Assembly (NCBI GenBank): GCA_001600415.1
Contig: BCJX01000004.1
Span: 298,220-362,219 of the forward strand
DNA from: Pascua guehoae
Taxonomy: Eukaryota; Basidiomycota; Tremellomycetes; Trichosporonales; Trichosporonaceae
DNA length: 64,000 nucleotides
Reading direction: 5' to 3'
Shown piece after piece: positions 45,319 through 54,149 of this stretch (position 1 is its first letter; each line of letters begins with the position of its first letter). The translations under genes were made by a program, and so were the position numbers. The notes under the pieces are model-generated. The model worked only from the letters and a program-made list of their open reading frames with translations. It ran no database searches and was not told the DNA's origin.

Positions 45319-46290
45319 CTACTGCTCGCTGCCAGGGACGGGCGGTGTGACTGTCATTGGCGGGGCAGTGGTCGTGGTCGGGAACGTGTATGTCACCGAC
45401 GAACCCGTCTCCGACTCGATGGCGCTCTCGGTCTCGGCCTCGGTGTCGGCGTAACCCTGGTAGGCCGGGTACGCAGCCGTCGCAGGGGCGAGGGTGTCGC
45501 CTGCGCCCGTGCCCGTGTCCGTGCCCGTCGCGCCCGGGCGTGCTGGGAGCTTGGGGCGCTGATCGCCACTCAGAATCCACGATGGCGGGCGCGACGGCGG
45601 GAGCGTGGATCCAGGCGCATAGTAGGCCATCTGGCGGCCGCGCATCTCGAACCCACACTTTTCGTAGAAGCCTGTAGGATGTTAGTTGACGCACCGACAC
45701 CCGACACCATATGCATTTCCAACGCTACGCCCACATTGCACGTCCCACATCCACTACACACATCCGCACGGCGGCACAGGCGTGTGCGCCTGCGGCAGCA
45801 GGGGCGTGGGCAGCGGGTGCTGCCCAGCGACCGCGTACTCACCAGTCTTGGACTCCTGGCAGTCGAGAATGACCTTGTAGCACCCAAGTCCCACAGCGAG
45901 CTCGCGCAGGCCAGTCACAAGCTTCAAGCCCAGGCCGCGTCCCTGCACCGCAGACGAGACGACAATGTCCTCAATGTGTCCAGCGTATCCACCGCCACGG
46001 ATAAACTTGCGCTCGACAATGAGCGTGCCCGACGCGACAATCTCGTCCGTGCTGCGGTTGATAATGACAACAATGTAGTACGTGTCGGGCGTGTTCTTGA
46101 GCGCCATAAAGAGCGACTCATACACGCTCGGCGCTAGGGGTGGCGACGGCGACAGGTTGGACAGGAGACCAAAGTGGGACCGCAAAAGGTCGTCCTTTGC
46201 CAGCGGACGCACGTGCAGGTCCTCACCCACGGTGACGTGCATGGCCTCTGGAATATACGCAGGGTCAAAGAGGAGCTCGAGAGACTCGTC
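45319..46290 (-). other. GNA1: GNA1 module of the fusion gene
   Basis: This part alone looks like a complete glucosamine-6-phosphate N-acetyltransferase, beginning near LLFDPAYIPE with an internal ATG at 46242, the acetyl-CoA loop QGRGLG and the terminal GFYEKCGFE block across the last intron. A tail of about 100 residues rich in Thr, Glu and Pro follows, absent from yeast Gna1 (159 residues). If the gene is really two units, this is the second one. An ATG at 46638, inside the preceding intron, is also in frame with it. Confidence 0.8.
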
Positions 46291-49200
46291 GGGTGTGAAC
46301 CTTGGCGCAGGGTAGCGTTCGGCACCAGCAACCGTTAACAAGTCATCAGGAGGAAGAATGTCCACCCGAGTGCGGGCGCTTCCATGGTTGACCGCGCGGG
46401 CTGGACCCGGGCCGCCAGCTGCGTCTCGGTTGTCTGTCTCGGCGTTCTGGTTGGCCTCAAACGAAAGGGGCGTCCCAACAGATGCAGGGGCCGATGGCGG
46501 CGAGTCGAAGAGGAGGTCAGAGTACGTGATAATGTCTTCAAGCACAGAGTCCTTTCCTTGCTGCATCATCACAGCGATGGCATTAGCGGGCACATCGTGG
46601 GGGCCAAAGACGACCGAGTCTGGGAATGAGTATGCCATGCTGCGATATGTGCGTCACCACTCACGGAAGACGACAGCGAGGTTCTTTGCGTCCATCTTGT
46701 TCTCTGCTGCGCGCGCAGCGACACGGGTGAGGTGTTGAATAATGGCCCGGAAGGTCGTCTGGTGGATTGGGGCAAGGCGGCGAAGACGGCCACGGAGGTT
46801 CGAAAAGTTGCTCGAGATATGTGCTTCTGCAAAGAGTCAGTGCGAGCCGGATTTGGGGGGGGGGGAATGTGGGTGTTTATTGTTGGTGTGGGAAGCGGGC
46901 AGTGCGATTGGCGTGGGCGGGAGTGTTGGTGGCAGTTAGGCTGTGGTGCGTTACACCGCCCACTGTCCACCAGCCAAAAGTGGGCACTTTCGAAACAGAC
47001 CACGTACCGCGGCTCTCGGTGAACTTGACGCGCTCAGCGTAGGGTAGAGGGAACAGCGGCTCTGGCAGCTCGCGAAGGTATTGCTTGAGAATGCCGCCGA
47101 TACTGTACACGTCGAGCGTGTCTGCAAACACAAACGCATCCTCGTTGAGTTCAATGTCGCGTACGAGCTGTTGTCAGCAAAGATAACAGGAGTAAAGGTG
47201 TCGAGGCTTAAGGGGGCCACAGACACTGCCCCATGCGTGTCACCGTCACACGCCACACACACATACTATGCCTGCTCTTCACTCACCTGCTTGATTGTCG
47301 CCTGCCTTCCGCTAACACGGTAGATGCCCTCAGACGAGAGTCCGCGCGCCTCGACTGCGGCAATGCACTTTTCGACAATGAGCGGTGGGCGACCGTGGTC
47401 ACCGCCCTCACCACGCGCAAAGTCGTAGTCGGTCAAGCTCACACCGAAGATGAGCGAGCGGCACACGCCCACGTAGTAGTTGTCATAGAGCATGGGGGCC
47501 GACCGCGGGGCACGGGGGAACTTGGAGCGGAAGAGCATGGCTTTGGAAGTGTAAGCATTGGTACCGAGGTGAGGGCGAGTTGGGCACTGGTGTGACTCAC
47601 TGTCCGACTCGAGGTTGATCTGGTGGATAGCGTCTGTAATGACATCTGTCGACTGTGCGAGAGTCGCGCCCGTTGCGCGGGCAGCATCGGTGAACGCGCG
47701 GAGAGTGTCCAAGAGTGCCTTGTTGAGGTCGTCGTTGAACTCGTTCAGGCTCTTGAGTGCGCTCTCCTGGAGCCTGTCGCGGCGGAGACGGAGCGACTCG
47801 CAGTGGAACACACCCGTGCGGTACGCCTTGTCGGCGTCTTCTGCCTCGCGCTTGACCCTGGTGCCCTTCAAAGGGCCGACAGACCGAGTCGAGCCCGTGG
47901 TCGAGCCGAGGCGGCTGTGGGAACGGAGGCTGCGGTCGTCGGTGCTCATGCTGCTCAGCGAGGTCATGATCGACGCGTCGTCGCCACCGCCAAAGCGCTG
48001 CATGATGGCGCTAAAGCCTTTCTTGCCTTGGGCGGCGACATCGCTCAGCACCTCCTTGCCGCGCGCCTCGACGGCTGCGAGCGAGCCTGAACCCGAGCGC
48101 GCACGCCCGTGTACAGGGATCTGCATCGAGGCCTGCGGCTGCTGCTGCACCTGGGGGACTGACGACTGCACCGGCTGGACACCCCGGCTCGGGCGCCGCG
48201 AGTGATTACGAGGCGGCAGGGCCGGAGGCTGCAGCGGTGGCTGCGGGGCAAGAGGCTCCTCGGCTGCAAGCGACAGCGACGGCGCCGAGAACGTTGGGCT
48301 GATGAGCGATGGTGGTGCCGCCGAGGACGGCGTAACGGTCGATCCAGGAGGGCTGGGGTCCGAACCACGGCTGGAGGTTGTCGAAAGAATGTTGAGGCTT
48401 GTGCCGCTCGCGTTTGCATGGCTCGTCATTCCCGGCGAAGCAGGCGACAGCGGGTGGTGCGGAGACTGGGGGTGTGTTGGGGACGACGACGCCGACGCCG
48501 CCAACACGTAAGGATGGGGCTGTTGCATCACTGGTGGGTTGGATTCGGATAAAAGCTTTTCCTGCTTGGCAACTGCGGCTTCTTGGCGCTTGTGGTCCTC
48601 GACCGCAGTGCACTTGTTGTCGTATGTGCGTTTGAGTTTCGGTACCTTTGAGAACGCATAGTCCTCGTATGACTGCTGGTCAGCTCGGCTCGGTGTCGGG
48701 CAGCGGTTGACGCTGGTCGGTAGACGAGGGAGTATAGCCGGCGTAGAGCAGCTGTTCGTAGCTGTAGACTCTCTCCTCAACAGCATGCAAAGTGCGCCGC
48801 CCACACACTGCTCAACGTGGCAGCCGCTCGCACCACACTTACAGAGGTAGCCTGTTTGAGGTCGTCCGCAATCCTTTTGCTGATCCTGGCCTGGGTATCT
48901 CGAACGGCGATGAGGCGCGCAACAACCCTCTCTTTCAAGGCATTGACAAACGCCTCTCGCGCGTCCATCTCGCGCTGGGTGTAGTCGCGGACCTCAATCC
49001 AGGCGCGGCGCGCCGTCGACCGCTGTCCACGGTGCTTGGTACTGTGGTGTGAGCGCTCGACGTCTTGGAGGAAAGCGCGCGCGAGGGGGTATCAGGGAGC
49101 AGAGTGGCGGCGGCGGGGTGACAGTTGACGAGCACGAGCACGAGCACGAGTGCAAGTGCGATCGTAGACAGAGCATTGCGTTTTTTTTTTTTGGCTTGGC

Positions 49201-50394
49201 GAGCGAAACCAAGACAACGAGGACACGGTGTGTGCTTCATGCTCGTCACACTGTCCCGTCACGATGCGTCGCTCCCTCGCCCTCGGCCCCGCTCGGCTCG
49301 GCCTGTCATTCCGCTCGCGCCAGCGCACTGCACTGGCTCCCCGCACCTTCCGTTGGCGCCGACAATGACCCACTCGTCATGTAAGCTGTCCTGGCTGACC
49401 GTCTTGGCGTGCAGCCTCTGCAGCTGGTCAATGTATGTCTGCTCGATGCGGATACTGGGGGTCAGCGGTGCAGGATGCGAGCGACGTACCGATCGTTGAA
49501 GTAGTTGATATAGTTCTCGTCTGCCGTCAGCGTTTGTGCATGCTTTCGGGGGGGCGAGGCAGTCGGGCGGTGCGAGTCAATGGCCGGCTGAAGGGTCCGT
49601 TGAAAGAAGGTTGTTGCCACCAAACATCCTTTGGAAGCAGGTTGTCGCCCTGAGCCACGGCTAGAAGCGATCGCTTCCCAGGCTAGTCAATGGCAGACCA
49701 AGCCATGCTGAACAAGGCCGAGCTATGTCAAGGGCGAGCGTTGCCGAAGGGGGAGGAGTTTACTGCACCACGTCACACGACCAAGACGGGCGCCGACCGG
49801 CGCGGACGGGGCGCGGACTCCCCCTCCCATGTCCATGGCAAACAGAGATCTTGACTGGCACGAAGCGCCGTCGATAGTCGCATTGTGCCACCGCGGCCAC
49901 GGCGGTGAGGCGGTGCGGGTGTGAAGCTCACCTTCTGCAAGTTTACGCTGCGTGTCAGCTTCGGCAACGTCAAACGCCGTCGCACGTCGTAGAGGCGATC
50001 CTCCAGGCTACACTCCAGCCCACACGACGGGGGATACACTCTGCCAGGCGACAGTGATGACAGTGGTGGCGAGTCGGTGTTGGCCGACCACGTCCACGGA
50101 TGACCGCGCCACCACGTCCACCGACGCGCCCCACCCCGTCACCCCTGCGCGTCTGTGTACGTGCGTGCAGCACTGCCCCGGACCAGGCGTCCACCCCTCT
50201 TCCTCCGCCACCGGCTAGTCCACCTCCTCGTCCACACCCCTGTCCCCTCTATCCCCCGTCGCCAAGCCGACTGGACCCACCGACCCCTACACTTCACAAC
50301 TCACCTCGAACGCCTTGGTGATATCATTATCCCGGCCCCCGCCCTTCTTCACGGGACTCGACGGCGGCGAGCGGTCGGTATACGCGTACGCCAT
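45319..50394 (-). CDS. F-BAR / RhoGAP protein fused in frame to glucosamine-6-phosphate N-acetyltransferase
   Basis: Eleven exons (50305-50394, 49932-49947, 49490-49520, 49347-49454, 48843-49041, 47601-48672, 47287-47540, 47008-47167, 46665-46826, 45843-46619, 45319-45671) join to 1073 residues. Order: F-BAR start FERKLAEDENYINYFNDR (about 30-47) and helices to about 215; a Ser/Pro-rich insertion (about 215-430); more F-BAR helix to about 505; RhoGAP domain (about 510-740) with arginine finger in GIYRVSG (Arg at about 580), KQYLRELPEPL, and NLAVVF-x-SVVFGPHD; a linker of about 70 residues; then a GNAT domain (about 813-970) with GHIEDIVVSSAVQGRGLG at 911-928 and GFYEKCGFEMRG, matching GNA1; last a Thr/Ser/Pro tail. 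RhoGAPs switch off Rho GTPases; GNA1 makes GlcN-Ac-6-P for UDP-GlcNAc. No stop separates the two parts. Two transcripts remain possible. Confidence 0.8.
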
Positions 50395-51588: not shown

Positions 51589-54149
51589 CTACTTGCGAGC
51601 CTCCTTTGCCGCCGCCTCCTTTACAGGGTCTGTTATTGTCAGCACTGTTCGTTTACTGCGTAAACCCAAGGCTGTACGCACCAAAGTAGGGGTGAGACTG
51701 TGCCTCGAGCGCGGTCAATCGCTCCTGGTGGTCGTAGCGGAGGAGCTTGTCCAAAAAGTCGATTGCCTCGTTGGAAATGTAGCGCTGGTTTTCCGACGTG
51801 ATAAACTTGGACCACGGCTTGCGGGGGTAGCGGCCGAGAATCTCGTCAAACTGCGAGTCGAGGTCAATGTCGTAGCGCTCGAGATAGTTGAAGAGCTCGT
51901 CGGTGCCGAGAACGCGGGTAATCTTGACGAGCTGGTCGGCATTGTCGTGGCCGTGGAAGAATGGCTCCTTGCGGAAGATCATGCTCGCAAACATGCACCC
52001 GAGCGACCACATGTCGAGGCTGTAGTCGTACTCTTGGAAGTCGACGAGCAGCTCGGGGCCCTTAAAGTACCGCGACGCGACACGGACATTGTACTCGGTG
52101 CCCGGGTGGTAGAACTCGGCCAGTCCCCAGTCAATCAGGCGCAGCTGTCTCCTCTCGTGGTCAATCATGACATTGTGCGGCTTGACGTCGCGGTGCATGA
52201 TGCCCTTCGAGTGGCAAAAGTCGAGCGCCTTGAGGAGCTCGTTGATGTAGAAGCGGACGTCAAAGTCGTTGAATTTGGGGTAGAGCGTCTTGAACTCGGT
52301 GTTCTGGGGGTGTGAGTAGGAGCAGCAGACATCGCAGCGGACATGGAGAGCAACCCTTACTCACGTTGACATACTCCGAGACGATCGACGGCGTCTTGGA
52401 CTGGCTGTCACGGACAACGTCCAAGAGACCAATGACGTTGGGCCCGCCGGCGAGGTTCTGAAGAATCTTGATCTCGCGCTTAATCTTCTTCTTCTTGACC
52501 GGCTTGAGCACCTTGACAATGCACTTTTGGTTGGTCGGGAGGTGCACCGATTCAAAGACCTGCGTGTTAGTTGGCACTGGAGGTTGGAGGTGGGGAAGCT
52601 GGCAAACGGGTTGTCGTTGACCAGGTCAATGGGTGGTTGACGGAGACGCGTCGTCCACAAGCTCCAGTGGCCGTTGAAGGCGCAAAAGCTAGTCGTCGCC
52701 GACCAGGCCAACTGTGCCATCGGCAACCGAATGTCCTCCTCAGTGCGTAGGCCAGCAGCTGGCAGACGGACAAAAGCATAGTCTGCGAGATTGGTCCACC
52801 TCAGCGGCAGAATATATGCCTAGGACAGCTGTCCAACGGCTCTACCAGCTCGGCGTCTGGCGGTGCATGCCCAACTCGACAGCAGACGCAACCAACTTAA
52901 CAGGGGACGCAACCAAGTCGACAGGGGACGCAACCAAGTCGACAGGGGACGCAACCAACTCAACAGGGGACGCAACCAAGTCGACAGGGGACGCAACCAA
53001 GTCGACAGCAGACGCAACCCAACTCTTCATGTCCCAGCCCTGCAACATCTGGCGCACCCCCCAACGTGACCAGCACAATTCAACACCAACCCCAACTCAC
53101 CTCGGAGTACTTTCCTCGTCCGACCTTGCGCACAATCTCGTAGTTGTCCTGCACACCCCACGTCACAATGAGGTTGTCTGGGCGTCAGCGCTGCAACGAG
53201 AGTATTTTGGCCGATCTCGGCGGTGGCAGGGCGGTGCAGCGTAGCGAGAGTGCGGGAGGGTGCGGATCTCGGCGGCCGTGCAGTGCGCGTGCAGTGCGCG
53301 GTGCAGCGCAGCGGGGGGCAGGCAGGACAGTAGACCCGGGCACGACAGGACGCTGCCGCCGTCGTAGCGAGGGGCACGCCACGCAAGCGGCAGTGCCGTC
53401 CCCGTGGGCCGTCGGGTATGCGCCATGCCCGGGCGCGACGAACAGGCAGGCGACGCACGGCCCGCATCCCGCGTGCCCTCTAGCCCTCTGCGTCGCCTCG
53501 TCTCGTCTCGCCTTGCCCGCGTGCGTCCGCCCGTCCGTGCTCGGTCGCCGCACCCTTTTCGCGTCCCTATACCCTCCGCGTGCACACCAACACCAGCACC
53601 AGCACACCAAACACCCGTTGTGCACTGCATCCCCACCCTCCCTTTGGACCTCGCCCGTGCACCTTTGCTGTGCCTCGGGGGTGCGCACCGCGCATCACTA
53701 TCGTTACGCGCACACCACCCTTTATGCACACTGCGCAGCGCACACGCACACGGCCACACACTGCGCTCGACGCACCATAGTCCCACCACGACCGTCCGAG
53801 CTTTTCGTTGACGTCGGGGTAGACGCGTGCCTGTGGTCAGCATCGAGTCGGGCCCGGCGGGGCGTCGAGACCGGCCCCAGTGTTGGTTACGGTGACGGGA
53901 CGGGGACGGGGACGCAGGGGACGGAGCGAGGCTGAACCGAGCGAGCGAGGGTGACGCGGCCTGGGCACGCTCGCGAGTCCGCTCGGTGCAGTCTGGCACG
54001 CACACTGGATGCGTATTTGGGCACAGAGCATCCGTGGCTAGCACAACATGGCGTGCCATGCCATGCCGGTTGGCCCGCGCCCAGCGTCCAGCGTCCAGCG
54101 CCCGCGCCCGAGGACCAGCGCAACTCACAATACTCCGGCTGCCCGACAT
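51589..54149 (-). CDS. CKA1: Casein kinase 2 catalytic subunit alpha
   Basis: Constitutive acidophilic Ser/Thr kinase of nucleus and cytoplasm, catalytic half of CK2. Six exons (54129-54149, 53776-53830, 53101-53177, 52365-52559, 51682-52303, 51589-51629) give 336 residues, the normal length. Landmarks: [10 protein letters not shown] at the start, glycine loop GRGKYSE, catalytic Lys at about 67, the basic cluster [13 protein letters not shown] (70-82), HRDVKPHN (about 153-160) and the CK2-specific DWG in place of DFG at about 174, then [19 protein letters not shown]. The tiny first exon (7 residues) is placed by phase and by an ATG directly before a good donor. Introns 1-3 are 298, 598 and 541 nt, unusually long for this genome; intron 3 holds a minisatellite. 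Confidence 0.96.
52878..53022. repeat. 21-bp minisatellite inside CKA1 intron 3
   Basis: About seven tandem copies of a 21-bp unit containing GGGGACGCAACCAA followed by GTCGACA or CTCAACA. Because 21 is a multiple of three, the array is open in frame on both strands, but it lies between two secure CKA1 exons. Confidence 0.9.

Follow-up and report, generated by a model that had tools for sequence, protein, structure and literature searches.

A RhoGAP domain and a GNA1 acetyltransferase encoded in one reading frame in Pascua guehoae and other Tremellomycetes

Results

One frame runs from an F-BAR-like RhoGAP into a complete GNA1

A 64,000-nucleotide (nt) stretch of the Pascua guehoae genome (contig BCJX01000004.1, positions 298,220 to 362,219; hereafter the window) contains a minus-strand gene in which a RhoGAP and the acetyltransferase GNA1 are encoded as one protein. 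A first-pass annotation of the window had reported this fusion in one continuous frame, and we confirm the observation. Identical architecture was found in 29 database proteins, and comparison of these sequences makes it likely, in our judgement, that the gene encodes a real bifunctional protein that predates the Trichosporonales-Tremellales split. The fused gene comprises the following features, numbered along the window.

45319..50394, minus strand: whole fused RhoGAP-GNA1 gene, 11 exons, 1074 residues (spliced model; architecture matched in 29 database proteins)
50305..50394, minus strand: exon 1, start codon and N-terminus, residues 1-30 (spliced model; a MAYay start is common in relatives)
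49932..49947, minus strand: exon 2, a 16-nt micro-exon, RKLAE (matches RKLTE/RKLAE in relatives)
47601..49520, minus strand: exons 3-6, remaining portion of the F-BAR-like N-terminal half, which includes a long insertion, to residue 506
46507..47385, minus strand: RhoGAP domain, exons 7-10, residues about 559-736, with the presumed arginine finger R581 (PF00620, 124.2 bits)
46620..46664, minus strand: 45-nt intron between exons 9 and 10, within the RhoGAP domain (spliced model)
46297..46506, minus strand: linker, residues 737-806 (70 residues), in exon 10; its SRTK-like motif reads SARTRV
45843..46296, minus strand: first part of the GNA1 domain, in exon 10, from TPDESLELLFDP
45616..45671, minus strand: last part of the GNA1 domain, in exon 11, FYEKCGF...MAYY, ending at about residue 976
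45319..45615, minus strand: C-terminal tail with a VTYxFP motif (pattern shared by 27 of the 30 fused proteins)

The gene starts at 50394 and stops at 45319-45321; all of its introns are GT/AG and the splice product is free of inner stops. Start, stop and exon number are those first annotated, and the frame is kept throughout; the refined model has 1074 residues, against 1073 in the first-pass annotation. The encoded order is F-BAR-like part, RhoGAP, linker, complete GNA1 and tail. As had also been described, the exon encoding NLAVVF (ending at 46665) is followed by the 45-nt intron (46664-46620, with ends GTGAGT ... CAG), and exon 10 (46619-45843) then carries the end of the RhoGAP domain (SVVFGPHD...LLFDS), the linker and the start of GNA1.

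A first splice model of 1103 residues, with other acceptors for exons 2 and 3, was replaced after relatives showed the micro-exon. Around this exon (49947-49932), the refined sequence RKLAEDENYINYF agrees with RKLTEDEGYINYF of C. oleaginosum. The long-protein search and the Pfam scoring described below were run on the first model; the region that changed (its residues 31-64) lies outside the GNA1 and RhoGAP domains but touches the FCH score.

Because this GC-rich stretch holds numerous long open reading frames on both strands, an open frame is by itself a weak argument. Within the linker, codon use modestly favours the joined frame, the mean log codon probability being -4.10 in frame versus -4.35 and -4.57 in the two remaining frames of the same strand, both of which contain stops. 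A promoter scan of the linker relied on bacterial patterns and is uninformative for a fungus. The decisive evidence for the fusion is the identical architecture of the 29 database proteins, which are themselves apparent gene predictions.

The fusion is present in two orders of Tremellomycetes

A search among long proteins, scored on the GNA1 part (size limit about 607-1930 residues, E <= 0.001, 1144 candidates), gave 29 matches, each with both a RhoGAP and a GNAT domain, so the fusion extends beyond this genome. Four matches carried no name, and the 25 named ones are all from Tremellomycetes. The first-pass annotation had proposed looking for the fusion in related Trichosporonales, where six named cases were found (Cutaneotrichosporon 3, Vanrija 2, Cryptotrichosporon 1), together with 19 in Tremellales (Kwoniella 12, Cryptococcus sp. 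2, Tremella 1, Naematelia 1, Kockovaella 1, Tremellales sp. 2). Taxonomic order was checked for Vanrija, Cutaneotrichosporon, Cryptotrichosporon, Kwoniella, Kockovaella and Naematelia; for the remaining genera they are given in the record name or are those we presume. No match in this search was named from Filobasidiales or Cystofilobasidiales, whose presence in the database was not checked.

The matches (P0001-P0029) bear names such as 'glucosamine-phosphate N-acetyltransferase', 'RhoGAP-domain-containing protein' and 'hypothetical protein'. The architecture is thus already in public databases under one-domain or 'hypothetical' names, and we found no study of those entries.

Two other kinds of unusual GNA1 records were seen. 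A Wallemia mellicola protein (P0221, 510 residues) has GNA1 followed by Mo25 (PF08569) in one predicted chain and is probably a merger of adjacent genes; it retains an inner MNFFKARPKTP, which resembles a Mo25 start. Three proteins of 337-386 residues (P0178, P0187, P0193) each have two matches to the GNA1-like FYEKCGF-type motif, perhaps tandem GNA1 domains.

Key residues of both domains are kept

On the first model, Pfam scored RhoGAP at 124.2 bits and GNAT at 46.9 bits, both above cut-off. FCH was matched at E <= 0.001 in 24 of the 29 relatives. A structure model of one of them (P0005) has long helices in the F-BAR-like half with a low-confidence stretch between them, and the long insertion there is probably disordered; our structural comparison barely tested the model beyond residues 472-686. 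NCBIfam, applied to three proteins, gave only matches far below its cut-offs.

Conservation was assessed in the Pascua protein plus the 29 database proteins. R581, which from its GIYR motif we take to be the arginine finger, is kept in 30/30. The fused GNA1 aligns over the whole domain to the solved AfGna1 structure 2vez (query 4-164 of 166, E 1.7e-32), and it has the GNA1 fold by our fold test. The active-site residues E104, D105, C141, Y149 and M161 of the Ce enzyme correspond to E915, D916, C952, Y960 and M972 here, and they are unchanged in every one of the 30 fused proteins that has the position. Outside the domains, an SRTK-like linker motif occurs in 28/30, the two Vanrija proteins being those without it, and VTYx[FY]P occurs in the C-terminal tail of 27/30.

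The fused GNA1 is a second copy

Some 146 kb from the fused gene, its contig carries another complete GNA1 (C4:495823-494943, minus strand, six exons, 185 residues). Its best solved match is AfGna1 (E 2.3e-39), and its last intron and that of the fused gene have identical place and phase. Stand-alone copies were found for at least 25 named Tremellomycetes in the best 120 of 1467 matches, including Uapishka_1, a partial record. Both forms were seen in at least 18 of the 25 named fusion species (names counted by hand); for the other seven, no stand-alone copy was among the matches listed, which does not show absence.

The idea that most relatives have only the fused GNA1 was considered and ruled out. 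It came from the best 120 of 469 matches to words from the fused domain, in which Uapishka_1 was the only named Tremellomycete with a paralogue-type GNA1; the at least 25 named Tremellomycetes given above emerged when paralogue words were searched as well. With another GNA1 present in this genome, and seen in at least 18 of the named fusion species, the fused enzyme is an additional copy, and the supply of N-acetylglucosamine-6-phosphate (GlcNAc-6-P) does not depend on it alone. The first-pass picture is supported as to the presence of the fusion in relatives and the key residues of both domains, and is changed in one major respect, the fused GNA1 being a second copy. On the RhoGAP side, no Rgd1-like RhoGAP other than the fused one was found in this genome.

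The two parts meet at the GNA1 start codon

A tree was built from 79 GNA1 domains (30 fused, 26 stand-alone Tremellomycete and 23 chosen others). The fused domains form one clade (100/100), and all Tremellomycete GNA1s fall together (99/94); the outgroup used for rooting was not clean, with one of its five rows on the wrong side and several long branches. A long branch (0.59) leads to the fused group, in keeping with a changed role of the fused GNA1.

TPD is found at the join in 28/30 fused proteins and MTPD starts 5/25 stand-alone GNA1s, which places the join at the GNA1 start codon as judged from this alignment. Every one of the 30 fused proteins has F, L, I, W or Y at the place of that start Met, and none has Met. 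These data would be read most simply as a single duplication in the Tremellomycete line together with a single fusion.

An open frame at 51653-52360 (minus strand), upstream of the fused gene, resembles the catalytic part of a CK2-alpha-like kinase.

Discussion

A joined protein versus a merged gene model

Several observations weigh against a real and ancient bifunctional protein. The fusion is known here from genomic sequence and from the apparent gene predictions of relatives. In Vanrija humicola, a protein of 227 residues (P0030) is annotated as a separate GNA1 beginning at an inner Met; it matches residues 750-973 of the V. pseudolonga fusion at 203/224 identical positions and is probably a split gene model. 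A Met lies among the 10 residues preceding TPD in six of the 30 fused proteins, at varying places, and the Pascua sequence has one within the GNA1 domain (EAMHV), so that an inner start is possible by sequence. The FCH match of the Pascua protein (22.3 bits, E 1.7e-4, first model) is below the Pfam cut-off of 27.8 bits, and the grouping of stand-alone Tremellomycete copies is weakly supported (61/73). Among the matches listed, the fusion was not found for seven named Tremellomycetes with a stand-alone GNA1 (Apiotrichum porosum, C. depauperatus, C. amylolentus, C. deneoformans, Kwoniella sp. B9012, P. laurentii and D. hungarica); clustering at 90% identity may conceal the fusions of some of them. 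As models of 552-606 and above about 1930 residues, lower-ranked matches and members of 90% clusters lay outside coverage, we claim no loss for C. deneoformans.

These predictions and the separate V. humicola annotation would fit a rival reading in which two adjacent same-strand genes had been merged in the models, or GNA1 was made separately from an inner start; the Met near TPD in the six proteins would fit it too. GC-rich DNA keeps many frames open, and the Wallemia protein offers an apparent precedent for a merger. Against this, the same order and joined frame recur in 29 database clusters, the linker motif pattern recurs in 28/30, and no fused protein has Met at the GNA1 boundary, whereas the Wallemia model retains its inner start-like sequence. 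We regard a merged model or a separately made GNA1 as very improbable, and retain the joined bifunctional protein.

What the link may do

Excerpts of PMC4393305 describe Saccharomyces cerevisiae Rgd1 as a GTPase-activating protein (GAP) for Rho3 and Rho4, located at the presumptive bud site and bud tip; 'F-BAR-containing RhoGAP' is the wording in the title of a reference cited there. Excerpts of PMC7324522 describe AfGna1 as an obligate homodimer with swapped elements and active sites built from both chains, place chitin synthesis at the cell membrane, and put two further steps (Agm1 and Uap1) between GlcNAc-6-P and the uridine diphosphate N-acetylglucosamine (UDP-GlcNAc) needed by chitin synthase.

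For the fused protein, we propose that GNA1 was duplicated in the Tremellomycete line, that one copy stayed a stand-alone enzyme, and that the other was appended, by its start codon, to the 3' end of the gene for an Rgd1-like F-BAR RhoGAP. An F-BAR-like dimer would bind the membrane at growth sites, where the RhoGAP part would switch off Rho3/Rho4-type GTPases and the GNA1 part, in its usual dimer, would make GlcNAc-6-P. Such a protein would be held at the membrane as a dimer, combining a Rho off-switch with an active GNA1.

Three uses of this link were weighed. The one we rank first, tentatively, is that substrate state (glucosamine-6-phosphate (GlcN-6-P) and acetyl-CoA) and Rho switch-off might influence each other; it is placed ahead of the others because a separate enzyme can supply the cell and GlcNAc-6-P would diffuse. 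A more specific and rather doubtful form is a sensor in which GlcN-6-P or acetyl-CoA bound at the GNA1 site would alter the dimer and hence GAP activity or membrane hold, such that wall-precursor or carbon status would set Rho signalling at growth sites. Duplication in the Tremellales-Trichosporonales ancestor would then have freed one GNA1 copy, with catalysis becoming part of the switch.

Ranked next, and in our view unlikely, is the local supply proposed in the first-pass annotation, by which the fused GNA1 is a growth-site copy feeding a membrane-bound hexosamine path to chitin synthase. The retained active site, the bud-site position of Rgd1 in those excerpts of PMC4393305 and the membrane site of chitin synthesis in those of PMC7324522 speak for it; a stand-alone GNA1 in the genome speaks against it, and GlcNAc-6-P is small, soluble and in need of the Agm1 and Uap1 steps, so that little would be gained without channelling. 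The accompanying suggestion, that chitin precursor synthesis comes under Rho control, gains no support here: it is the RhoGAP that acts on Rho and not Rho on the RhoGAP, and a small soluble product two steps before UDP-GlcNAc should spread quickly through a yeast cell. Last and improbable is a scaffold, GNA1 being retained purely as a strong dimerising module for the RhoGAP with incidental catalysis. The obligate, element-swapped AfGna1 homodimer of PMC7324522 would suit it; however, a pure scaffold should allow the active site to drift, yet E, D, C, Y and M show no change in any fused protein in which the position exists.

In this protein a hexosamine-pathway enzyme and a Rho off-switch share a single polypeptide; the key residues of the two active sites have been retained across two orders of fungi, and a separate enzyme copy has been retained too. 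A link between wall-precursor metabolism and Rho signalling becomes testable via point mutations in each domain. Furthermore, the name 'GNA1' can refer to either of two genes in these fungi, a point of importance for work in which it is treated as a single drug target or metabolic step.

Comparison with known systems

The first-pass annotation knew of no description of this arrangement, and our literature search likewise had no paper on a RhoGAP-GNA1 fusion among the matches listed, subscription journals lying mostly outside its coverage. In the excerpts of a C. neoformans septin paper checked for such a protein, only Lrg1 is named as a Rho GTPase activator (PMC11651612). The Tremellomycete entries P0001-P0029 have the same architecture and are orthologues of the fused gene as judged by the tree of the GNA1 part.

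Compared with the Rgd1-type F-BAR RhoGAP of S. cerevisiae, the fused protein has a long insert in its F-BAR-like part and continues into the linker, a full GNA1 and a tail that bears a conserved motif. Its GNA1 part resembles known GNA1 enzymes (AfGna1 2vez/2vxk, ScGna1 1i1d) in whole-domain alignment and active-site residues. Unlike GNA1 elsewhere, which is mostly a free protein of 160-220 residues, it is here the C-terminal portion of a 1074-residue protein and a second copy. RmNag, described in excerpts of PMC4680927 as a GH3 beta-N-acetylglucosaminidase with a GNAT glucosamine acetyltransferase region, likewise joins a glucosamine-type acetyltransferase to a protein of fungal aminosugar metabolism; the likeness is one of description, and the partner there is a glycoside hydrolase, not a Rho regulator.
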